Below are positions 5,117 through 17,735 of a stretch of DNA of 64,000 bases, piece by piece (within the stretch, counting starts at the first letter, position 1; every line of letters begins with the position of its first letter). Under the pieces are notes generated by a model, which made no database searches, was not told the DNA's origin, and saw only the letters and a program-made list of their open reading frames with translations. The stretch lies in the NCBI RefSeq assembly GCF_900103175.1, contig NZ_FNLF01000002.1, positions 496,001-560,000 on the forward strand. The letters run 5' to 3'. The translations under genes and the position numbers were made by a program. This DNA is from Tsukamurella pulmonis. GTDB taxonomy: Bacteria > Actinomycetota > Actinomycetes > Mycobacteriales > Mycobacteriaceae.

Positions 5117-5298
5117 ACTCGGCGGGACCGCGATGCAAGTTACTGCAATGTTTGATCATGAATTCAAAGCTGAGCATCGCGGCGCAGAACGTCAGAGAAA
5201 CCGCAGGATGGCACATCCCCAGTGAACATTCTTCTGTAGCAACCGTTCGACCTGCGATGTTTCTGTGAGCTTCGCTCACGGGAAGTCCTATTGAAGAT
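5117..5298. other. Non-coding, locally AT-richer upstream region of the synthetase
   Basis: This stretch holds no convincing ORF. It is visibly less GC-rich than its surroundings (for example around TTTGATCATGAATTCAAAG at 5152-5170). It contains a 6-bp hairpin GTGAGC-TTC-GCTCAC at 5265-5279 and the left copy of the GCAACCGTT...TGCGAT repeat at 5239-5258. It is best read as regulatory DNA for the synthetase operon. Confidence 0.6.
5239..5258 (+). repeat. Direct repeat GCAACCGTT-N5-TGCGAT, left copy
   Basis: The sequence gcaaccgtt, five bases, then tgcgat recurs at 5339-5359 with a six-base gap, 100 bp downstream and next to the probable start of the synthetase transcript. Repeated regulator-binding sites are the simplest explanation. 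Confidence 0.5.
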
Positions 5299-5299
5299 G

Positions 5300-5329
5300 T
5301 TGCAATTCCAACGTCGCGCTCCCTACAAT
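5300..5329 (+). promoter_or_regulatory. Probable promoter of the synthetase operon (TTGCAA-N18-TACAAT)
   Basis: The -35-like TTGCAA (5300-5305) and -10-like TACAAT (5324-5329) are 18 bases apart, predicting transcription from about 5336 and a 45-base leader. An 8-bp inverted repeat, GTTGCAAT (5299-5306) and ATTGCAAC (5336-5343), brackets the promoter exactly, with one arm on the -35 and the other on the start site. Confidence 0.6.
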
Positions 5330-5338
5330 TCTGCGATT

Positions 5339-5359
5339 GCAACCGTTGTGTGTTGCGAT
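5339..5359 (+). repeat. Direct repeat GCAACCGTT-N6-TGCGAT, right copy
   Basis: This is the second copy of the element at 5239-5258. It lies just downstream of the predicted transcription start and overlaps the right arm of the inverted repeat around the promoter. Confidence 0.5.
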
Positions 5360-5380
5360 CGTTACGCAGAGGAGAGCTAG

Positions 5381-8300
5381 GTGGACCACGTGGTGCACTC
5401 CCTGACCGGAGCCCAGTACGGAATGTGGCTCGGTCAGCAGATGTCCCCGGACGTCGCGTACACCGTGGCGCAATACGTCGACATCCGCGGTCCGTTCGAC
5501 GTCGCGACCATGCAGCGGGCCACCCGCGAGGCCAGCGACGAGTTCCTCTCCCCGTTCCTGCGCGTCGAGGTCGACGAGTCCGGCTCGCCGGTGCAGCGGC
5601 TCGACCGCTCGATCGACGCCGCCGCCCAGGTCATCGACCTGGGCCTGGCCGATCTGCCCGAGGACCAGCGGATCGACGCCGCCGTCGCCTGGATGCGCGC
5701 CGAGTACTCGCGGCCGATCGACATGGCGACCGACGAGCTCATCATCAACCGCCTGATCCACGTCGCCGACGATCGCTGGCTCTGGTACGCGCGCGCTCAC
5801 CACGTGGTCATCGACGGCTACGGCGCCTCGATCCTGCAGCGCCGCGTCGCCGAGCTCTACACCGCGCACGCCACCGGCGCCGAGACGCCGCCGCTCAAGC
5901 CCGCCCCGCTGACGCCCGAGGGCTTCGTCGTCTCCGAGGACAAGTACCTGGCCTCGGCGCGCTCGGACGGTGACGCCGAGTACTGGTCCGAGGTGGTCGC
6001 GACCCTGCCCGAGGCGGCCGGCCTGAGCCGCGTGGTCGCGGCGCCGTCGAGCCTGAATCTGCGCCGCAACGGCGACCCCAGCGCCGAGGCGGGGGCCCGG
6101 CTCGAGGCAGCGGCCGAGCGCCTGGGCACCAACCGCACCGGCCTCGTGATCGCGGCCTTCGGCGCGTACGTGGCCGCGGTCTCGGGCCGCGAGCAGGTCT
6201 CGCTCTCGGTGCCCGTCGCGGCCCGCACCACCGCCGCGCTGCGCGGCTCCACCGGCATGACGGCCAACGTGCTGCCCGTGCCGGTGCGCGCCGGCTCCGG
6301 GGCCACCGTCTCCGACATCATCGACGGCACCGGCCTCGACCTGCGCAACGGGCTGCGGCACCAGCTCTATCCCGCCGCCCGTATGGAGGCGCCCACGCTG
6401 CGCGAGGGCGTCGTCGGTTCCACCTTCGGCGACACCATCAACATCATGATGTTCTCGTCGGCGCTCACCCTGGGCGAGGCGGCCGGCACGCTGAACCTGC
6501 TGACGTCCGGGCCGGCCGAGGACGTGGCCGTCACCGTCTACGAGTCCGAACAGGGCGCGCTGCGGATCGACATGGAGGCCAACCCGGCGACCTACACCGT
6601 CGCCGATCTGGACGCGCACTACGTGCGGTTCATGGAGTACCTCGAGCGCTTCGCCGCCGCATCCGGCGGGACGCCGCTGTCCGCCCTGACGGTCGCCACC
6701 GCCGCCGAGACCGCGGACTGGACCCGCTTCGCCGGTGCGGCACCGGGCGCACCCGCGGCCGCCGGCCCGTCCGTCCCGATGCCCGAGCTGCTGCGCCGCG
6801 TCGCCGCCGCGGAGCCCGAGCGGATCGCCGTCGTCGACGGTGACCGCAGCATCACCTACGCCGAGCTGGACCGCTACAGCGATCGGCTGGCGCGGTACCT
6901 GATGACCGTCGGTGCGGCGCCCGAGGAGCGCGTCGCCCTGCGCATCCCGCGTTCGCTCGAATCCGTGATCGCCGTGTGGGCGGTGGCGAAGACCGGCGCG
7001 GCCTTCGTGCCGATCGACCCGAAGTTGCCCGCCGAGCGCGCCGAGCACATCGCCACGGCGGCGGCGCCGGTCGCCACGCTGACCCCGGCGGACCTCGCGC
7101 GCGTGTGGGGACCCGGTGCGAACGCCGGTGCCAGCGATGCGGATTGGCCGGCCATCGACCTCGCGAACCCCGCCTACCTGATCTTCACCTCCGGTTCGAC
7201 CGGCCGCCCGAAGGGCGTCAGCGTCACCCACACCGGCCTGTCGAGCCTCGCGGCCGAGCTGGTCCGCTCGCACGGCCTGGCCGAGGGCTCGCGCGTCATG
7301 CACTTCGTCTCGCCGGGCTTCGACGCCTCGGTGCTCGAACTGCTCATGGCCGTCGGCAGCGCCTCGACACTCGTGGTGGTGCCGCCGGACGTCTACGGCG
7401 GCGAGGAACTCGAGGAGATCCTCGCGCAGAGCGAGGTCAACGGCGGATTCATCACGCCCGCAGCGGTCGCCACGCTGGATCCGGCGAAGCTGCCCGCGCT
7501 CACCTCCCTCGGCGTCGGCGGCGACACGGTGCCGCAGGCCCTCGTCGACAAGTGGGCGGGCAACGGGCGCACGCTCGTCAACGTCTACGGACCGACCGAG
7601 ACCACGATCGCCGTCACCCTCGGCGCGCTGCGGGCCGAGGCTCCCGTGCGCCTGGGCGGACCGATCCCCGGCACCCGGCTCTACGTTCTCGACTCGGAGC
7701 TGCGGCCCGCCCCCGCCGGTGTCCCGGGCGAGCTCTACATCTCCGGCCCGGGCATCGCCCGCGGCTACCACGGCAACCCGGTGCTCACCGCGGAGCGCTT
7801 CGTGGCCAACCCCTTCGAGGCCGACGGTGCCCGCATGTACCGCTCCGGCGACCTCGTGCGCTGGGACGTCGACGGCACGCTCGAGTTCCTCGGTCGCGTG
7901 GACTCGCAGGTGAAGCTGCGCGGGTTCCGCATCGAACTCGGCGAGATCGACGCGGCAGTCATGCGCGTGCCCGGCACCGAGCGCGCCGTCACCGTCGTCC
8001 TCGGCGACGACACAGCGACCGCGGAACTGGTCACCTACGTGACCGGCACCGCGGAGACCGGCACGATCTCCGCGAGCATCGCGGCGGAACTGCCCGCCTA
8101 CATGGTTCCGGCGCACATCGTTCCGCTCGGCGAGTTCCCGCTCACCGTCAACGGCAAGGTCGATCACAAGCAACTCCCGCAGCCCGAGCGCGCCGCGGTC
8201 ACCGTGATCACCGGGCGCGGCCCGAAGACCGACGCCGAGAAGCTCGTCGCGGAGGCCTTCGCCGAGGTGATCCCGGGCGTGACGAAGGACGACCTCAACG

Positions 8301-11300
8301 TCGCCACCACGCTCTTCGACCTCGGCGGCAACTCCCTGTCCGCCACCCGCATCGCCGCCCGGCTCGGCTCGGCGACCGGCACTCGCGTGAGCGTGGCGAC
8401 GGTCTTCGCCAATCCGACCGTCGAGGGTCTCGCCGCCGCGATCGGCGGCGCGCCCGTGCCCGCCGCGGCGCTCGCGCCCGCGACGGAGGCGGTCGTCGCC
8501 GCGCCGGTCGCGGCCGAGCCGGAGTTCACGGCACCGTCGGATCCGGAGGAGGCGGCGGAGCTGCTCCCCGCCCAGCACCAGATGTGGGTCCGCAACCGCG
8601 TCAGTCCCGATGGCTCGTACCACATTCCGGTCGCGCTGCACCTGCGCGGCGACGTGGACGTCTCCGCCATGCGCGTCGCCCTGGGGGAGGTCGTCGCGCG
8701 GCACACCCCGCTGCGCACCGTCTACCGCAACGGCCCCACCGCCGGCGAGCCCGAGGTGCAGGTGCTGCCCGCCGGACCGAACCTCGTGCCGTTCACCGAG
8801 CGCTCCGTGACGATCGGTGAGCTGACCGACGCCGCGTCCGAGTACGCCGCCGAGCCCTTCGATCTCGCCGCCGACGTGCCGATCCGGGCGCGGATGTACC
8901 GCATCGACGATCGGCACTTCGTCCTGGTGCTGGTGATCCACCACATCGCCGCGGACGGCTGGTCGATGCTGCCGCTCGCCGGTGATCTCGCCACCGCCTA
9001 CGCCTCGCGCACGCGCGGCAAGGCGCCGAAGTTCGCACCGCTGCCGCGCACCTACACCGAGCACGCCCGCTCCTACAAGCACCGCCTGACCGGGGCGCCG
9101 CGCCAGGCGCTCGACCGGTTCTGGGCGGACGTGCTCGCCGATCCGCCGGCCGAGTCGGTGCCGCCCGCCGCGGTCCCGCGCTCCGGCGGCGTCGTCTCCG
9201 CGGCGCGTTCGATCGACACCCGCGTCGCCCCCGAGGTGTGGGCGGGCGTGGCCGGACTGGCCCGCGCGCACACCACCACGCCGTTCATCGTCGTGCATGC
9301 GGCGCTGGCGGCGGCGATCTCGCGCTTGTCGGGCCAGAGCGATCTGGTGATCGGCACCGCCGTCGCCGGTCGCGGCGAGGCCGAACTCGACGGTCTCGTC
9401 GGCATGTTCGTCAACTCGATCCCGCTGCGCACCCGGACCGTCAACGACAACACCTTCGCCCAGCATCTCGCCGCGGTCAGCCGCGGCGACCTCGACGCGC
9501 TCGACCATTCGGACCTGCCGTTCGAGTCGGTGCTGGAACTGGTGGACCCGCCGCGCGCCGCGGGCCGGCACCCGATCTTCCAGGTGATGCTCAACCAGCG
9601 CCCGTTCGACACCCAGCACTTCCCGATGGCCGGCATCGACGTCGAGGTCGTCCCCGTCGACGTGCCGATCGCCCGCTTCGATCTCGAGTTCACGCTCGGC
9701 GCCGACGGCACGATCGAGCTGCGTTACGCCTCGGAGCTCTACCGCACCGAACAGGCCGAGTCGATCCTGGACGCGCTCGTCGCGGTGCTCACCGCGGTGG
9801 GCCTCGATCCCCAGACGACGATCGACGCGCTGCCGATCATGGCGGCTGAGCGGCTCGCCGAGCTCACCCCTGTGCACGGGGTGGAGGCCGACTTCCACAC
9901 CCCGCTCGGGCAGCTCATGCGCGAGGCGGCCCGGACCTACTCCAACCGTCCCGCGATCGTCGACGGCGAGCGGGTGCTGACCTACCGCGAGCTGTACGCC
10001 GACGCCCGCAAGGTGGCCGCCGCGGTGCTGGCCGCCGGATCGCGCCCCGGTGAGGCCGTGCTCACGGACCTGCCGCGCTCCGCGGAGTCCATCACCGCGT
10101 TCTGGGGGATCACGCTCGCCGGTGCCGCGGTCGCTCCCGTGGACCCGAAGTACCCGCAGGACCGCCGCGACTACATCGCGAACGACGTGCGCGCCCGCGT
10201 GGGCGTCACCGCGACGGGCAGCGGCGTCGAGGGCGTCAACTGGGTCGCGATGGACAACCTCGACGGTGACGGTTACGACCCGCAGATCGTGCCGAACCTC
10301 GACGACGCCGCGTACGTCATCTACACCTCGGGTTCCACCGGGCAGCCGAAGGGCACCGTGGTCACCCACCGCGGCCTGGGCAACTTCGCCGAGGAGCTGC
10401 ACGTGCGCCTCCAGACCGGCGCCGACACCAAGGTGATGGCGTTCGCCTCCACGGCCTTCGACGCGACGGTGCTCGAACACCTCATGGCGATCCGTGTGGG
10501 CGCGCCGCTGGTCGTGGTGCCCTCGGGGACCACCGGTGGACGCGAACTGGAACGGATCATCGCCGAACACGGAGTGACGCACGGCTTCCTCACCCCGTCG
10601 ACCCTGGCGACCGTCGATCCCGACGCCGTCCCGACCTGGACCACCGTGCTCGCCGGCGGCGAGGCGCTGGGCCCCGGCCTGGCGAAGAAGTGGAGCGTCG
10701 GCCGGCACCTGCACAACGGCTACGGCCCGACCGAGACCACCATCATGACCGCGATCTCCGACGCGCTCTCGGGCGACGGCCGGGTGCCGATCGGCCCGCC
10801 CGTGCGCGGCCAGGGCCTGATGGTGCTCGACGACGAGCTGCGCCCGGTCCCCGTGGGCATGCCCGGCGAACTCTACGTCGCGGGACCGCAGCTGGCGCGC
10901 GGCTACCACCGGCGCCCGCAGCTGACCGCGTCCCGCTTCGTCGCGAACCCGTACGGCGCCCCCGGCGACCGGATGTACCGCACCGGCGACGTGGTGCGCT
11001 GGACCCGGAGCGACAACGGCAGGCTGATCGTCGATTTCGTGGGCCGCAACGACTTCCAGGTCAAGATCCGCGGCATCCGCATCGAGCTCGGCGAGATCGA
11101 CGCGACCATCGACACGATGCCCGGCGTGGACTTCGTCTCGACCCAGGTGCGCCCCGGCCCCGACGGTGCCCCGGCGCTCGTCGCGTACGTCAAGGGCGAC
11201 GTGGACCCGTCCGCGGTGCGCGCCCACGTGCGTACCCGGCTGCCCGGCTTCATGGTTCCCGCCGCGGTGATGATCATCGCCTCGGTGCCCATGGGCAACA

Positions 11301-14300
11301 CCGGCAAGCTCGACAACGCCGCCCTGCCCGAGCCCTACTTCGGAGGCACCGGCAACGCGGCCGCCACGCCGCGGACACCGGGCGAGAGCCGCGTGCTCGA
11401 CGCGTTCCGCAAGGTGCTCGGCAACGAGGCCATCGGCGTCGAGGACGACTTCTTCGACCTCGGCGGCAACTCGCTCTCGGCCAACGAGCTGGTCGGCCTG
11501 CTGGGCAACGGGATCGAGGCGCGCACCGTCTTCGATCTGCGGACCCCCGCCGCCATCGCGACCGCGCTCACCGGTGATCCCGACCGGATCTCCAACGAGT
11601 CCGCCCTCGAGGACCAGGGCCTGCGCCGCGTGCAGCGCGGCGATCGCATGCCGCTCTCGTCCGCGCAGGAGCGGATGTGGTTGCAGAACAAGATCGACCC
11701 GGGCCCCACGTACAACATCGGCGCGGCGTTCCTCGCCAGCCGGCCGGTCGACAAGGCCGTGCTCGACGCGGCCCTGCGCGACCTGCTCGAGCGGCACGAG
11801 AGCCTGCGCACCCGGTACCCGTCCTCGGCCGAGGGCCCGTACCAGGAGATCCTCGCCGTGGACGCGCCCGAGATCCGCGATTTCGCGGCCGAGTTCGGGA
11901 CCGCGACCTCCAATGTGGCTGGCCAGGAGTCGGCGATCGCGGAGTTCGTCGCGCGGCCGTTCGCGCTCAACCGCGACCTGCCGCTGCGGGTCATGACCGC
12001 CCCGACCGGCAAGGGCTCGATCCTGGCGATCGCGGTGCACCACATCGCCGCCGACGGCGCCTCGGTGGTGCCGCTGACCCGTGACCTGATGGCCGCGTAC
12101 CTGGCCCGCAGCACGGGCTCCGAGCCGCAGTGGAGCGAGCTGCCGCTGCAGTACGCGGACTACGCGGTGTGGCAGCGTGGCCAGGCGGAGAAAGACGCCG
12201 GCGCGGTGGACTACTTCGCCGAGCGCCTCGCCGGCATTCCGGAGGAGAGCTCCTTCCCGGCCGACGGCCCGCGCCCGACGATCGGCTCGACCGACGCGGG
12301 AGAGATAGCCATCGTGCTGCCGCGTGCGGAGCGGGATGCGCTGGCGGACTTCGCCGCCAAGCGCGGTGTCTCGATGTTCATGGTGCTGCACGCCGGTCTC
12401 GCCGCGCTGCTGCACCGCGTCAACGGCGCCGACGACGTGGTGGTGGGCACCCCGGTGATCGGCCGGACCGACCGTCGCCTGCGCGACGTGGTCGGCATGT
12501 TCGTCAACACCGTGGCGCTGCGCACCACCGTCACCGGCGCTGAGAGCTTCAACGCCCTCGTGGACCGGATCCGCAGCGGCGATCTCGACGATCTGGTGCA
12601 CGCGACCGCGCCGTTCGAGCGCGTGATCGAGGCCCTGCAGCCGCCGCGCAGCCGGGACCGGCACCCCGTGTTCCAGGTGATGCTCAGCCACCAGAACCTG
12701 GGCGATCCGCTCAGCGTGCTCAGCACCGACGGTGCCGGCGTGTTCGAGCTCGAGCCGCTGCCGCTGGCCGCGGCCACCACGACCTTCGACGCCACCTTCG
12801 AGGTGCGGGAGGTCGAGGAGGGCCTGCGGTTCAACCTGCGCTACCGCACCGACCTGTACCGGCCCAGTACCGCCGAGGGCATCGTCGGACGCCTCGCGCG
12901 CCTGGTGACGGCCGGCGTGGCCTCGCCGGACACCCCGGTCGCCGACCTGCCGGTGCTGCTGCCGGAGGAGCAGGAGCTCTTCCAGCGCGCCTCCGCCACG
13001 ATCGAGCCGCACACCATGGCGGAGATCCTCGCGCGGGCCGTGCGGCAGCGCCCGGGTGCCCCGGCGCTGCGCGACGGCGATCTGCACTACACCTACTCCG
13101 AGCTGGACTCGGCGGTCTCCGCCCTGGCGAACCGCCTCGCCGGTCTCGGCGTGGGCATCGGAACCCGCGTGGCCGTGTCCGTTCCGCGCTCGGCCGCCTC
13201 GGTCGTCGCGTTCTGGGCCGTGGCCCGGCTCGGCGCCGTCTACCTGCCCGTCGACCCGAACTACCCGGCCGAGCGGATCGAGTACATCCTCGAGGACGCC
13301 ACGCCCTCGGTGGGCCTGACGGTCCGCGAGGCCTCGGCGGGGCTGCCGGCGTCCGTCGAGTGGGTGCTGGTCGACCTGACCTCCTCGCGGGTGCAGCACC
13401 CGCCGGCCGATGTCGCACCGGTGGGCGTCGACGATCCGGCGTACGTCATCTACACCTCGGGCTCCACCGGTAGGCCCAAGGGTGTCGTCGTCCCGCACCG
13501 CGGGCTCGCCGCGATGGCCGATTCGCTGGTGCGCCAGCACGCCGTCGGTGCCGAGGCCCGGGTGCTGCACTTCGCCTCCCCGAGCTTCGACGCCTCGATC
13601 CTCGAACTGCTCCTGGCGACTTGGTCGCGGGCCGAGCTCGTGATCGCGCCGGTCACGCTCTATGGCGGCTCGCCGCTGGGCGACTTCCTGGCGGAGAACG
13701 AGGTCACGCACGCCTTCATCACCCCGGCCGCGCTGGCCACGATCCCGGATCGTGACCTGCCGCTGCTGGAGGCGCTGAGCGTCGGCGGCGACGTGCTGCA
13801 GACCGAGCTGGCCCGCCGCTGGGCCAACGGGCGGATCCTGATCAACGCCTACGGACCGACCGAGGTCACGATCGCCGCGACGATGGGCGCCGTCGACCCC
13901 GACAACGTGGGCATCGGCAGCGCCGTCACGGACGCCCAGCTGATGATCTGCGACGAGCGCCTGAACCTGGTGGCGCCCGGCACCGTCGGCGAGCTGTACG
14001 TGGCGGGCCCCGGTGTGGCGCACGGCTATCTCGACCGGCCCGAGCTCACCGCGTCCCGGTTCGTCGCGAATCCGTACAACGATGCGCAGGGCTACAAGCG
14101 CATGTACCGCACGGGCGACCTGGTGCGCTGGCGCGCCTCCGAATCGGGCGATCCGGTGCTCGAGTTCGTCGGCCGCAGCGACGATCAACTCAAGGTCCGC
14201 GGCTTCCGCGTGGAGCCGGGCGAGGTCGCCACGGCCGTCGAGAGCCACCCGCGGGTGCGTCAGGCCGTCGTGGTCGTCGACCGCGGCGACGGCTCGCTCG

Positions 14301-16645
14301 AGGCGCAGGCCGCCGCGCGGCTGGTCGCGTACTACGTGGCCGACGGTGCCGTCACCGTCGATGAGCTGCGCAACTGGGTCGGCGATCGCCTTCCGCGCCA
14401 CATGGTTCCGGCGGTCTTCCAGCAGATCGACCGGGTGCCGGTGACCGCGCACGGCAAGACCGACCTCAAGGCGCTGCCGCCCGTCGGTGCCCCCGCGCCG
14501 GCGGTGCGGGAGCAGGCGCCGGTGTCCCCGCTGGCCGCGGTGGTCGAGCCCGTCGCGCCCAAGCCCCGGACGATGTCCGCCGCCAGCTTGGACGGCGCTG
14601 TGGCCGAGATCCTCTCGGACGTGCTCGGAGTCGCCTCGCTGGGCATGGACGACGACTTCTTCGCCGTCGGCGGCACGTCGCTGCAGGCCGCGATCGCCGT
14701 CGACCGGCTGCGTGAGCGGTTCAACGCCGACGACGCCAGCATCCGCTGGTTCTTCGAGGACGCCAAGGTCTCGGCGATCGCGGCACGGATCGCCGGTGCC
14801 CCGGCGCCGGTCTCGACGACGGCCGTGATCACCGGTGTGGCAGCGGATTCCGACACCGCCATCACCGATCCGATCCTGCCGCTGCGCGCGGGCACCCCGG
14901 GCGTGGAGCCGCTGTACTGCGTGCATCCGGCGGTCGGCCTGGCCTGGAACTACCTGGGCCTGTCGGGCGAACTGGATCCGAGCATCCCGATCATCGGTCT
15001 GCAGGCTCCCGGCATCTCGTACCCGATGCCGCCCGCGGATTCGATCAAGGAACTCGCGCGCACCTACGTCCGCAACATCCGCGCGAGCCGTCCGCACGGC
15101 CCGTACAACCTGCTGGGCTGGTCGCTCGGCGGCCTCATCGCGCACGAGATGGCCGTGGAGCTCCGCGATCTGGGCGAGAAGGTCAACCTCGCCCTGATGG
15201 ACGCCTATCCGCTGGGCGATTACCGCGGACCGCGGGAGGAGATGTCCGTCGCGGCGCTCCTGCGCGAGTTCGTGGGGCTCGACGTGGACGAGGACGCGGA
15301 GCTGACGACCGATGACGCGCTCGACCTGCTGGCCTCGGCCGGCGGCCCGGCCCGCGAGCTCTCGCGCGGCCAGATGGAGCGACTGCTGTCGAACTACCGG
15401 CACAACACGATGCTGGGTTACTCGCACCGTCCGCGCGAGTACGACGGCAACATGCTGGTCTTCCGCGCCACGGAGCAGCCCACCGGTGGCCTGGTGCCGC
15501 AGCTGTGGCGGCCGTACGTGACCGGTCTGGTCCAGGTGCACGACATCGAGGCGACGCACAACCAGCTCGGCTCGTCGCCGGCGATCGACGAGGTCGCCCG
15601 CACGATGAACGTCTTCCTCACCGGCAACTACACCGCGGTGGTGAAGTCCACGAGCAAGACGCTGGACGAGACGAAGCCGCTCGTCAGTGTCCGTGGCTTG
15701 ACCCGCAAGTACGGCCGCGGCAAGAAGGCCGTGTACGCGCTCAACGGTGTGGATCTCGACATCGCGCCGGGCAGCGTGCACGCCCTGCTCGGCCCGAACG
15801 GCGCGGGCAAGACGACCACGGTGAAGATCATCTCGACGCTCATGAAGCCCTCCGAGGGCTCCGTGACGATCGACGGTGTCGACGCCCTGGCCGATCCCAG
15901 GAAGGCGCGGTCGATCATCGGCCTGTCGGGTCAGTACTCGGCGGTCGACGAGAACCTGACCGGCCGGGAGAACCTCGAGATGTTCGCCCGCCTCTACGGA
16001 TTCGACAGGGCCTCGGCGAAGGCGCGGGCCAACGAGCTGCTCAAGCAGTTCCGGCTCACCGCCGCCGCCGACCGCGGCTCGGGCACGTACTCGGGCGGCA
16101 TGCGCCGCCGGCTCGACCTGGCCGGCGCGATCATCGCTCGCCCGCGCCTGGTGGTGCTCGACGAGCCCACCACGGGTCTCGACCCGCGCAGCCGCAAGGA
16201 CGTGTGGGACGTGATCGCCCGGCTCAGCAAGGAGGACGGCATCTCGGTGCTGCTGACCACGCAGTACCTGGACGAGGCCGAGCTGCTCGCCGACCTGGTC
16301 ACGATCATCGACCAGGGCCGGATCATCCGCTCCGGCACCGTCCCCGAGCTGAAGTCGGCCGCCGCGGCGGATCTGATCCAGATCGGGATACGTGAGCGCG
16401 ACCGCGTGACGGCGTGGCCGATCCTGGCCCGCCACGCGATCGACGGCACCGCGATCCGCGAGGCCTCCGGCCTCAGCGCGATCCGCGTGGCCGACGGCCA
16501 GTACAAGCTCGTCGCCGTGCTCAACGACCTGCGCGAGGCCGGCGTCCACGTCGAGTCCGCGATGTTGCGCGAGGCCACCCTGGACGACGTCTTCTTCGCC
16601 CTCACCGGCGAGGACGCGAACAAGACCGAGGAGAAGAACGCATGA
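5381..16645 (+). CDS. Three-module non-ribosomal peptide synthetase fused to a DrrA-type ABC ATPase
   Basis: This single 3754-residue protein starts at a GTG behind GAGGAG. The domain order, with visible catalytic residues, is as follows. C1 from residue 1 (HHVVIDG at 140-146); A1 from about 465 (TSGSTG near 603); T1 (Ser985 in GGNS). C2 from about 1059 (HHIAADG at 1187); A2 from about 1506; T2 (Ser2031). C3 from about 2086 (HHIAADG at 2220); A3 from about 2546; T3 (Ser3100 in GGTS). Then a thioesterase from about 3161 (GWSLGG with Ser3248, Asp3274, His3393), and from about 3432 a complete ABC ATPase. C1 and the thioesterase resemble those of EntF, so the first condensation may receive an acyl or aryl starter. 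By eye, alignment to GrsA gives pocket residues DALFGGVIA, DALFLGGIM and DALFSGAIA for the three A domains, and I cannot assign amino acids to these. No epimerase or methylase domain is seen. The gene overlaps the permease by ATGA. The predicted product is a tripeptide or oligomer, made and exported by one operon. Confidence 0.95.
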   Translation: MDHVVHSLTGAQYGMWLGQQMSPDVAYTVAQYVDIRGPFDVATMQRATREASDEFLSPFLRVEVDESGSPVQRLDRSIDAAAQVIDLGLADLPEDQRIDAAVAWMRAEYSRPIDMATDELIINRLIHVADDRWLWYARAHHVVIDGYGASILQRRVAELYTAHATGAETPPLKPAPLTPEGFVVSEDKYLASARSDGDAEYWSEVVATLPEAAGLSRVVAAPSSLNLRRNGDPSAEAGARLEAAAERLGTNRTGLVIAAFGAYVAAVSGREQVSLSVPVAARTTAALRGSTGMTANVLPVPVRAGSGATVSDIIDGTGLDLRNGLRHQLYPAARMEAPTLREGVVGSTFGDTINIMMFSSALTLGEAAGTLNLLTSGPAEDVAVTVYESEQGALRIDMEANPATYTVADLDAHYVRFMEYLERFAAASGGTPLSALTVATAAETADWTRFAGAAPGAPAAAGPSVPMPELLRRVAAAEPERIAVVDGDRSITYAELDRYSDRLARYLMTVGAAPEERVALRIPRSLESVIAVWAVAKTGAAFVPIDPKLPAERAEHIATAAAPVATLTPADLARVWGPGANAGASDADWPAIDLANPAYLIFTSGSTGRPKGVSVTHTGLSSLAAELVRSHGLAEGSRVMHFVSPGFDASVLELLMAVGSASTLVVVPPDVYGGEELEEILAQSEVNGGFITPAAVATLDPAKLPALTSLGVGGDTVPQALVDKWAGNGRTLVNVYGPTETTIAVTLGALRAEAPVRLGGPIPGTRLYVLDSELRPAPAGVPGELYISGPGIARGYHGNPVLTAERFVANPFEADGARMYRSGDLVRWDVDGTLEFLGRVDSQVKLRGFRIELGEIDAAVMRVPGTERAVTVVLGDDTATAELVTYVTGTAETGTISASIAAELPAYMVPAHIVPLGEFPLTVNGKVDHKQLPQPERAAVTVITGRGPKTDAEKLVAEAFAEVIPGVTKDDLNVATTLFDLGGNSLSATRIAARLGSATGTRVSVATVFANPTVEGLAAAIGGAPVPAAALAPATEAVVAAPVAAEPEFTAPSDPEEAAELLPAQHQMWVRNRVSPDGSYHIPVALHLRGDVDVSAMRVALGEVVARHTPLRTVYRNGPTAGEPEVQVLPAGPNLVPFTERSVTIGELTDAASEYAAEPFDLAADVPIRARMYRIDDRHFVLVLVIHHIAADGWSMLPLAGDLATAYASRTRGKAPKFAPLPRTYTEHARSYKHRLTGAPRQALDRFWADVLADPPAESVPPAAVPRSGGVVSAARSIDTRVAPEVWAGVAGLARAHTTTPFIVVHAALAAAISRLSGQSDLVIGTAVAGRGEAELDGLVGMFVNSIPLRTRTVNDNTFAQHLAAVSRGDLDALDHSDLPFESVLELVDPPRAAGRHPIFQVMLNQRPFDTQHFPMAGIDVEVVPVDVPIARFDLEFTLGADGTIELRYASELYRTEQAESILDALVAVLTAVGLDPQTTIDALPIMAAERLAELTPVHGVEADFHTPLGQLMREAARTYSNRPAIVDGERVLTYRELYADARKVAAAVLAAGSRPGEAVLTDLPRSAESITAFWGITLAGAAVAPVDPKYPQDRRDYIANDVRARVGVTATGSGVEGVNWVAMDNLDGDGYDPQIVPNLDDAAYVIYTSGSTGQPKGTVVTHRGLGNFAEELHVRLQTGADTKVMAFASTAFDATVLEHLMAIRVGAPLVVVPSGTTGGRELERIIAEHGVTHGFLTPSTLATVDPDAVPTWTTVLAGGEALGPGLAKKWSVGRHLHNGYGPTETTIMTAISDALSGDGRVPIGPPVRGQGLMVLDDELRPVPVGMPGELYVAGPQLARGYHRRPQLTASRFVANPYGAPGDRMYRTGDVVRWTRSDNGRLIVDFVGRNDFQVKIRGIRIELGEIDATIDTMPGVDFVSTQVRPGPDGAPALVAYVKGDVDPSAVRAHVRTRLPGFMVPAAVMIIASVPMGNTGKLDNAALPEPYFGGTGNAAATPRTPGESRVLDAFRKVLGNEAIGVEDDFFDLGGNSLSANELVGLLGNGIEARTVFDLRTPAAIATALTGDPDRISNESALEDQGLRRVQRGDRMPLSSAQERMWLQNKIDPGPTYNIGAAFLASRPVDKAVLDAALRDLLERHESLRTRYPSSAEGPYQEILAVDAPEIRDFAAEFGTATSNVAGQESAIAEFVARPFALNRDLPLRVMTAPTGKGSILAIAVHHIAADGASVVPLTRDLMAAYLARSTGSEPQWSELPLQYADYAVWQRGQAEKDAGAVDYFAERLAGIPEESSFPADGPRPTIGSTDAGEIAIVLPRAERDALADFAAKRGVSMFMVLHAGLAALLHRVNGADDVVVGTPVIGRTDRRLRDVVGMFVNTVALRTTVTGAESFNALVDRIRSGDLDDLVHATAPFERVIEALQPPRSRDRHPVFQVMLSHQNLGDPLSVLSTDGAGVFELEPLPLAAATTTFDATFEVREVEEGLRFNLRYRTDLYRPSTAEGIVGRLARLVTAGVASPDTPVADLPVLLPEEQELFQRASATIEPHTMAEILARAVRQRPGAPALRDGDLHYTYSELDSAVSALANRLAGLGVGIGTRVAVSVPRSAASVVAFWAVARLGAVYLPVDPNYPAERIEYILEDATPSVGLTVREASAGLPASVEWVLVDLTSSRVQHPPADVAPVGVDDPAYVIYTSGSTGRPKGVVVPHRGLAAMADSLVRQHAVGAEARVLHFASPSFDASILELLLATWSRAELVIAPVTLYGGSPLGDFLAENEVTHAFITPAALATIPDRDLPLLEALSVGGDVLQTELARRWANGRILINAYGPTEVTIAATMGAVDPDNVGIGSAVTDAQLMICDERLNLVAPGTVGELYVAGPGVAHGYLDRPELTASRFVANPYNDAQGYKRMYRTGDLVRWRASESGDPVLEFVGRSDDQLKVRGFRVEPGEVATAVESHPRVRQAVVVVDRGDGSLEAQAAARLVAYYVADGAVTVDELRNWVGDRLPRHMVPAVFQQIDRVPVTAHGKTDLKALPPVGAPAPAVREQAPVSPLAAVVEPVAPKPRTMSAASLDGAVAEILSDVLGVASLGMDDDFFAVGGTSLQAAIAVDRLRERFNADDASIRWFFEDAKVSAIAARIAGAPAPVSTTAVITGVAADSDTAITDPILPLRAGTPGVEPLYCVHPAVGLAWNYLGLSGELDPSIPIIGLQAPGISYPMPPADSIKELARTYVRNIRASRPHGPYNLLGWSLGGLIAHEMAVELRDLGEKVNLALMDAYPLGDYRGPREEMSVAALLREFVGLDVDEDAELTTDDALDLLASAGGPARELSRGQMERLLSNYRHNTMLGYSHRPREYDGNMLVFRATEQPTGGLVPQLWRPYVTGLVQVHDIEATHNQLGSSPAIDEVARTMNVFLTGNYTAVVKSTSKTLDETKPLVSVRGLTRKYGRGKKAVYALNGVDLDIAPGSVHALLGPNGAGKTTTVKIISTLMKPSEGSVTIDGVDALADPRKARSIIGLSGQYSAVDENLTGRENLEMFARLYGFDRASAKARANELLKQFRLTAAADRGSGTYSGGMRRRLDLAGAIIARPRLVVLDEPTTGLDPRSRKDVWDVIARLSKEDGISVLLTTQYLDEAELLADLVTIIDQGRIIRSGTVPELKSAAAADLIQIGIRERDRVTAWPILARHAIDGTAIREASGLSAIRVADGQYKLVAVLNDLREAGVHVESAMLREATLDDVFFALTGEDANKTEEKNA
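15674..16642 (+). other. Fused DrrA-family ATPase domain of the synthetase
   Basis: From residue about 3432 the same reading frame continues into a full nucleotide-binding domain: Walker A GPNGAGKT (3471-3478), signature YSGGMRRRLDLA (from 3570), Walker B VVLDEP (Asp3594, Glu3595), the H-loop region (LLTTQYLDEA) and the DrrA-type C-terminal tail ending EATLDDVFFALTG. Only about 20 residues link it to the thioesterase end (MNVFLTGNY). No stop codon or plausible internal ribosome-binding site separates the two. Daunorubicin-resistance-type ATPases are normally separate polypeptides. Confidence 0.93.
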
Positions 16646-17481
16646 CCGCGATCACCTTCCCGCAGGAGCGGGAGTCGTCGCTGGGCGGATTCCTCAGCGA
16701 CTGCGCGGTGATGACCCGCCGCAACCTGACCACGCTGGTGCGGATCCCGCAGCTGCTGCTCGGCGCGACGGTGCAGCCGATCATGTTCGTGCTGCTCTTC
16801 AGCTACGTCTTCGGCTCGGCGCTCGGCGGAGAGGTCGGGGGCGATCGCTACCGCGAGTTCCTGCTCGCGGGCATCCTCGTCCAGACGGTGGCCTTCAGCT
16901 CCGGGCCCACCGCGATCGGTGTGGCCTCGGACATGAAGAACGGCATCATCGACCGGTTCTGTTCGCTGCCGATGTCGCGGCTCGCGGTCATGGTGGGCCG
17001 CACCATCTCCGATCTCGTGGTCAACGTGATCAGCGTGGCCGTGATGCTGCTGGTGGGCCTCGCGGTGGGCTGGCGGATGCGCGGCAGCTGGGTGGATGCG
17101 GCGGTGTCGCTGTCGGTGCTGCTGCTCTTCGGCTTCGCGATGTCGTGGCTGGGCGCGCTCATCGGGCTCTCGGTGTCCACACCCGAATCGGCCCAGGCGC
17201 TGACCATGATCGTCATGTTCCCGATCGCCTTCATCTCGTCGGCGTTCATCGCCTCGGGCGATCTGCCGGGCCCGCTGCGCACCATCGCCTCCTGGAACCC
17301 CGTGACCTCCATGGCGCGCTCGCTGCGCGAGGCCTTCGGCAACCCGCTGAGCCCGAAGCCCGTGGTGAACGAGCCCATGAACTGGGCCGCCGAGCACGCG
17401 ACCGCGTACTCCGCGCTGGCCTCGCTGGCGATCATCGTGGTCGTCGTCCCGCTCGCCGCCCGCGCGTACATGAAGCACTAG
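16642..17481 (+). CDS. ABC-2 type (DrrB-like) export permease
   Basis: The 279-residue membrane protein has about six helices and an ABC-2 transporter layout. It includes the conserved stretch FPIAFISSAFIASGDLPGPLR, followed by ASWNPVTSMARSLREAFG, typical of DrrB permeases. Its ATG overlaps the stop codon of the synthetase-ATPase fusion (ATGA at 16642-16645), so translation is probably coupled. It has no separate ATPase gene beside it, so the ATPase domain fused to the synthetase is the natural energy source. The pair should form an exporter for the peptide made by the same protein. Confidence 0.92.
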   Translation: MTAITFPQERESSLGGFLSDCAVMTRRNLTTLVRIPQLLLGATVQPIMFVLLFSYVFGSALGGEVGGDRYREFLLAGILVQTVAFSSGPTAIGVASDMKNGIIDRFCSLPMSRLAVMVGRTISDLVVNVISVAVMLLVGLAVGWRMRGSWVDAAVSLSVLLLFGFAMSWLGALIGLSVSTPESAQALTMIVMFPIAFISSAFIASGDLPGPLRTIASWNPVTSMARSLREAFGNPLSPKPVVNEPMNWAAEHATAYSALASLAIIVVVVPLAARAYMKH

Positions 17482-17531: not shown

Positions 17532-17735
17532 ATGAACAACCCCTTCGACAACGAGACCGGCGAGTTCCTCGTGCTCGTGAACGACGAGGGCCAGCATTCG
17601 CTGTGGCCGACGTTCCGTGAGGCGCCGCGCGGCTGGACCGTCGCGTTCGGTGAGGGCGGTCGTTCGCGCACGGAGTGCCTCGAGTACATCGAGTCGGCGT
17701 GGACGGACATCCGCCCGCTGAGCCTGCGCGCCTGA
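17532..17735 (+). CDS. MbtH-like protein
   Basis: The 67-residue protein carries the family signature: [15 protein letters not shown], and [18 protein letters not shown]. MbtH-like proteins bind adenylation domains and are often needed for their solubility or activity. The ribosome-binding site AAGGAG (17519-17524) precedes the ATG by seven bases. It is the third gene of the operon, 50 bases after the permease, and a strong terminator follows. It presumably serves one or more of the three A domains upstream. Confidence 0.97.

Follow-up and report, generated by a model that had tools for sequence, protein, structure and literature searches.

The window analyzed in this study, a stretch of 64,000 nucleotides from Tsukamurella pulmonis (contig NZ_FNLF01000002.1), carries on its forward strand a single open reading frame of 3754 codons (5381–16645). 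It starts with GTG, is immediately preceded by an in-frame TAG at position 5378, and an AGGAG-like ribosome binding site was recognized by eye upstream of the start codon. Pfam matches to three Condensation, three AMP-binding, three PP-binding, one Thioesterase and one ABC_tran domain were obtained for the encoded protein, all above their cut-offs. The domains form three condensation-adenylation-carrier modules of a nonribosomal peptide synthetase (NRPS) with a thioesterase behind them; from there, a disordered linker of about 14 residues leads into a complete DrrA-type ABC ATPase. Both the ORF and its Pfam domains agree with the original prediction of a frame running without a stop from a three-module synthetase and thioesterase into such an ATPase. 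Downstream on the same strand lies a gene for an ABC-2 type permease of 279 amino acids (16642–17481), whose ATG (16642–16644) overlaps the TGA of the fused ORF (16643–16645) in the sequence ATGA. It is directly followed by a gene encoding an MbtH-like protein of 67 amino acids (17532–17735), which was absent from the earlier description of the locus.

The synthetase part has the hallmarks of a type I NRPS, with HHxxxDG motifs starting at residues 139, 1185, and 2218 and carrier motifs starting at residues 978, 2024, and 3093. The first condensation domain is located at 5393–6682 and contains an intact HHVVIDG motif, the first carrier domain at 8246–8443 (PF00550, residues 956–1021), the third condensation domain at 11645–12976 (PF00668, residues 2089–2532) and the core of the third adenylation domain at 13031–14032 (PF00501, residues 2551–2884). 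The thioesterase domain (14909–15610; PF00975, residues 3177–3410) aligns to the NRPS thioesterase 7crn, with EntF also among the matches. Its putative triad, as read from the motifs, consists of Ser3248 (GWSLGG), Asp3274 (MDAYP) and His3393 (ATHN). Hence, an NRPS thioesterase with its Ser, Asp, and His motifs is present, yet it is no longer located at the end of the chain. An antisense ORF of 3753 amino acids (5288–16549, reverse strand) mirrors the synthetase. It is most likely an artefact of composition, since the sense frame lacks TTA, CTA, and TCA codons, which fits its third-position G+C content of 93–94% in the NRPS and thioesterase parts.

The ATPase domain extends from 15731 to 16609 (TIGR01188, residues 3451–3743), with the ABC_tran match at residues 3454–3598. 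It carries the Walker A, signature and Walker B motifs of a DrrA-type ATPase exactly at the residues given originally, namely GPNGAGKT from residue 3471 (15791–15814), SGGM from 3571 (16091–16102) and VVLDEP from 3591 (16151–16168). The ATPase part alone (15605–16645) scored 317.1 bits against the DrrA model TIGR01188 and thus exceeded the NCBI cut-off of 312.45, whereas the whole protein of 3754 amino acids scored slightly below it (310.9 bits). Among the best 50 of 1941 Foldseek matches, the ABC fold was the only feature confirmed. The H-loop contains a glutamine (TTQYL) instead of histidine in all 20 aligned ATPase rows, which comprise 7 of the 13 Tsukamurella fusions, the fusion of genome G176 described below and 12 free ATPases. 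As the free ATPases are included, the glutamine is rather a trait of the group than a sign of decay of the fused domain.

DrrAB and DrrABC exporters, which are linked to daunorubicin by their family name and to PDIM in M. tuberculosis (PMC11539658, excerpt), share the ATPase family and an ABC-2 permease partner with the Tsukamurella system. In the excerpt of the same source, a free ATPase with a conserved H-loop is reported for these exporters, whereas the Tsukamurella ATPase has a glutamine and is not a free-standing polypeptide; its fusion to an NRPS is the change which defines this variant of the DrrA type. The permease also differs, as it reached 71.5 bits against the DrrB model TIGR01247, with a cut-off of 223.05 bits, while PF01061 was matched. 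With a score this far below the NCBI cut-off, it should be addressed as an ABC-2 permease and just loosely as "DrrB-like". Of the permease initially described as DrrB-like and starting within the stop codon, the overlap therefore stands, and the label holds only loosely.

The thioesterase-ATPase stretch was searched for in 16 Tsukamurella genomes including that of the window (E 1e-40), and in 13 of them it was matched as a whole without a stop codon. These matches run end to end within 3 residues and have identities of 87–100%. The linker length and the distance from the thioesterase histidine to Walker A are identical in all 13 genomes, and the permease start overlaps the stop of the fused ORF in each of them (ATGA in nine, TGATG in four). 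G009 (83% complete), G010, and G011 contain no close copy of the synthetase and only distant NRPS modules: the best-scoring matches to the first 1040 residues have identities of 34, 34, and 30%, respectively, with shorter matches reaching at most 39%, compared to 81% in G004. Furthermore, a T. tyrosinosolvens record (NCTC13231), whose species may already be represented among the 13 genomes, contains one CDS of 11,274 bp with a stop-free junction, followed by an overlapping permease gene and an MbtH gene. In its public annotation, the fused CDS is merely called a non-ribosomal peptide synthetase. The gene order in this strain is leuA, synthetase, permease, MbtH, mannosyltransferase, hypothetical protein, and aspartate kinase. 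The sequence in question, NZ_LR134469.1, is named "plasmid 27"; as leuA, aspartate kinase and aspartate-semialdehyde dehydrogenase genes surround the synthetase, the contig appears to be chromosomal.

Uncorrected pN/pS ratios were 0.17 for the thioesterase core, 0.12 for the thioesterase end and 0.08–0.16 for the ATPase. Judged by these ratios, both domains are under purifying selection. The covalent linkage of synthetase and ATPase is established at the gene level, and the domain fusion is real, conserved, and unusual.

In other genera the two functions are usually encoded separately. Thirteen loci of other Mycobacteriales genera were read first, chosen since their match spanned both domains or their open frame was very long, and in 12 of them a stop codon is located between synthetase and ATPase, with 33–402 nt from the stop to the ATPase match. 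A permease match accompanies the ATPase match in 19 of 21 other-genus loci, all with NRPS matches apart from the contig-cut L126; in L082 and L083, no permease was found at E 1e-6. In 11 of the fetched loci (L088–L092, L123–L125, L127, L128, and L130), thioesterase and ATPase are separated by an mbtH gene, whereas in Tsukamurella this gene follows the permease. With the MbtH of the window as query (E 1e-6), no MbtH was found in the fetched stretches L080–L087. In a Streptomyces record, NRPS and exporter genes are likewise separate but adjacent. These tandem loci, arranged as NRPS-mbtH-drrA-drrB or NRPS-drrA-drrB, resemble the Tsukamurella locus in combining a thioesterase-ended NRPS, a DrrA-type ATPase and an ABC-2 permease, often with MbtH. 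They differ in encoding separate polypeptides, and L090 has four modules instead of three.

G027 has the free ATPase (57% identity) and the permease (59% identity) most similar to those of the window; in this genome, the NRPS is divergent from drrA-drrB, with approximately 90 bases between the listed starts (L129, 12909–13003). The gene 3′ of the permease presumably encodes a carotenoid-oxygenase-like protein. In G037, a free drrA located beside the NRPS is matched in two pieces in different frames (L084, 2963–3915, reverse strand), due to a frameshift or an assembly error.

In the family, a stop-free match over both domains was obtained in 14 of 401 genomes (E 1e-85), namely the 13 Tsukamurella genomes and G176. 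When the phylum (396 genomes) and the order (397 genomes) were sampled at E 1e-95, only Tsukamurella and G037 were matched, the latter with a stop; the phylum, order and family samples overlap, and a fusion whose thioesterase is distant could escape them. The genus of G176, probably Gordonia, gave a match in 31 of 59 genomes (E 1e-110), with G176 as the only full-length and stop-free one. The architecture of a thioesterase and ABC_tran at a synthetase C terminus thus occurs in Tsukamurella and G176 among the sampled genomes. Further fusions suggested by long open frames were rejected, as the frame measure reads through stops, and G041, G367, G275, G052, and G148 were discarded after the fetched stretches showed separate genes.

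The fusion in G176 (L085) comprises NRPS, thioesterase and DrrA in one ORF of 4361 amino acids. As in Tsukamurella, the thioesterase is followed by the ATPase and the permease start overlaps the end of the fused ORF. In contrast, the G176 protein has four condensation, three adenylation, and four carrier matches, and the sole MbtH match of this genome is located about 40 kb from the fusion, whereas the Tsukamurella mbtH lies directly behind the permease. In a tree of 85 ATPase rows, all 13 Tsukamurella fusions cluster together (100/100), and the G176 sequence falls inside a separate group of 19 rows from its own genus (100/100). Since the two belong to separate ATPase clades, the fusion arose at least twice independently. 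With the only MbtH match so far away, synthetase and ATPase may have come together in G176 when an intervening mbtH was lost. The sister row of the Tsukamurella group is G027, a placement which possibly reflects a long-branch effect.

The component families and the neighborhood of NRPS and drrAB genes are of already known kinds. The part of the open-access literature that was searched yielded no report of a fusion between an NRPS and an ABC ATPase, and "ABC transporter" is not mentioned in the excerpts of PMC9680422 (Gordonia) and PMC5550956 (Rhodococcus). The covalent fusion, its genus-wide conservation, and its second origin appear to be undescribed in the literature covered by this search.

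Regarding the product, the closest solved relatives of the first condensation domain, among 10 sequences listed, are the starter (lipoinitiation) domain RzmA-Cs (7C1K/7C1H), followed by ObiF, CdaPS1-Cs, and EntF; the PDB codes were identified from an excerpt of PMC7804268. From the domain content, an acyl group is probably the starting unit of the synthetase, which would then add three residues and have its product released by the thioesterase. An N-acylated tripeptide is likely, as the first condensation domain is nearest to a fatty-acyl-loading starter domain among the solved structures. The adenylation codes DALFGGVIA, DALFLGGIM, and DALFSGAIA, read by eye from the core motifs, did not point to any residue with confidence.

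The junction was modeled with AlphaFold2 (594 residues, 30 sequences), with a mean pLDDT of 82.7 and a pTM of 0.50, a value at which the relative placing of the thioesterase and ATPase domains is not predicted. Both domains are folded in the model, and model residues 256–269, corresponding to the linker at protein residues 3416–3429 (15626–15667), are disordered (pLDDT below 50). In the excerpt of PMC11539658, DrrA is modeled as a dimer on the permeases (DrrBC-A2). If, as expected for the DrrA type, the ATPase works as a dimer, one transporter would carry two synthetase chains, and the proposal of one synthetase-exporter ATPase per assembly line has to be corrected in this respect. As only one permease gene is present at the locus, a permease dimer with two fused chains would be the simplest complex.

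The best reading of these data, to which we assign a probability of about 0.62, is a locus for synthesis and export of a small peptide, in which the exporter ATPase is tethered covalently to an acyl-tripeptide synthetase, probably with two chains per transporter. In the ancestor of the Tsukamurella carriers, an in-frame fusion of neighboring genes would have made the ATPase the C-terminal domain of the synthetase. If the fused chain persists intact in the cell and the ATPase has the adjacent permease as its partner, the ATPase domain would dimerize on a permease homodimer, and each transporter would keep a pair of synthetase chains anchored beneath the membrane via a flexible linker of about 14–18 residues. 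The releasing thioesterase would then sit beside the pump, whose substrate would be the small nonribosomal peptide itself. With the fusion, every synthetase would come with exactly one exporter ATPase, and two synthetases would meet at the membrane. Tethering may in this way aid export and couple it to release, although separate proteins suffice in most of the relatives examined, which counts against this reading.

A precedent for coupling synthesis to export by physical contact is the interaction of the transporter MmpL7 with the polyketide synthase PpsE (PMC1238737, excerpt). It is non-covalent and involves an RND transporter and a polyketide, whereas the Tsukamurella system is covalent and combines an ABC ATPase with an NRPS. 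More tentatively, and with odds clearly below even, the synthetase itself could be regarded as an exporter subunit. The ATPase dimer would pair two assembly lines on one permease, and release and ATP-driven export would take place in one membrane-anchored machine, a solution reached twice independently. How large assembly-line enzymes pass hydrophobic products to exporters is an open question. With a natural covalent fusion, a defined molecule becomes available in which the complex of synthetase and exporter can be purified and imaged, and separated at a single linker. The fusion predicts a forced pairing of NRPS chains and makes coupled synthesis and export testable.

The strongest alternative, which we consider a serious contender although not quite an even bet, is a neutral fusion, in which a stop separating tandem NRPS and drrA genes was lost, the joined protein remained functional and the tether brings no advantage other than 1:1 co-expression. 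In seven relatives (L080–L084, L086, and L087), NRPS and ATPase share the same frame with 33–60 nt from the NRPS stop to the ATPase match, and one stop loss could join them; as the loci were found via same-frame matches or large open frames, no rate of fusion is drawn from this. The linker is also poorly constrained, with a pN/pS of 0.63 over 14 codons from AVVKST. However, the fusion was kept in all 13 Tsukamurella genomes which hold the synthetase and has arisen twice. The retention is weak evidence against neutrality, since un-fusing requires both a new stop and a new start.

The tethered reading further depends on the fate of the chain, as the ATPase could also, or only, be a separate polypeptide, arising by internal initiation at codon 3409 or by cleavage within the linker. 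The original prediction had itself raised a separately made ATPase. All 13 sequences share the in-frame ATG at codon 3409, with a GAGG 11 nt upstream of it in 10 of them, and the predicted disorder would open the linker to proteases. Synonymous change was scored in 15-codon windows (n = 100, mean 0.31, SD 0.07) and ranges from 0.22 to 0.36 near the junction. The value over ATG 3409 is 0.22, about 1.2 SD below the mean and the 11th lowest of 100. This dip is small compared to that over the true permease start at the 3′ end of the ORF, which is the lowest of all (0.08). Low values also occur at residues 3601–3655 (0.14–0.22), where no known start is located, and of the 11 windows at or below 0.225, seven lie within the ATPase at a distance from known starts. 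The dip is therefore not specific for starts and suggestive only; synonymous sites do not clearly point to a start at the junction, although a weak signal may be present. Moreover, ATG 3409 lies inside the last helix of the thioesterase in the model (helix 241–253), and, as judged by eye in the 13 sequences, none of the GTG and TTG candidates within the linker is conserved. An internal start is not supported by the synonymous sites as a whole, although the conserved ATG and the slight dip are in its favor, and overall we consider a separately made ATPase improbable.

Even less probable is that the ATPase domain acts in self-resistance or regulation instead of as an exporter motor and does not work with the adjacent permease. 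DrrA-type ATPases are indeed named for drug resistance, but the permease start overlaps the stop of the fused ORF throughout the Tsukamurella carriers and the end of the fused ORF in G176, and the recurrence of ATPase and permease matches together in the other-genus loci also argues for an exporter. Finally, a sequencing or assembly error which deleted a stop between two genes is practically inconceivable, as the stop-free junction is common to 13 of 16 Tsukamurella genomes and the NCTC13231 record, the 13 genomes diverge at synonymous sites by about 0.31 per pair on average, and the stop feared to be hidden near 15.6–15.7 kb is excluded by these junctions.

Upstream of the synthetase, no signs of iron regulation were evident by eye. 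A second NRPS locus with thioesterase and MbtH matches was identified elsewhere in the same genome (L122, C2:852000–871900).
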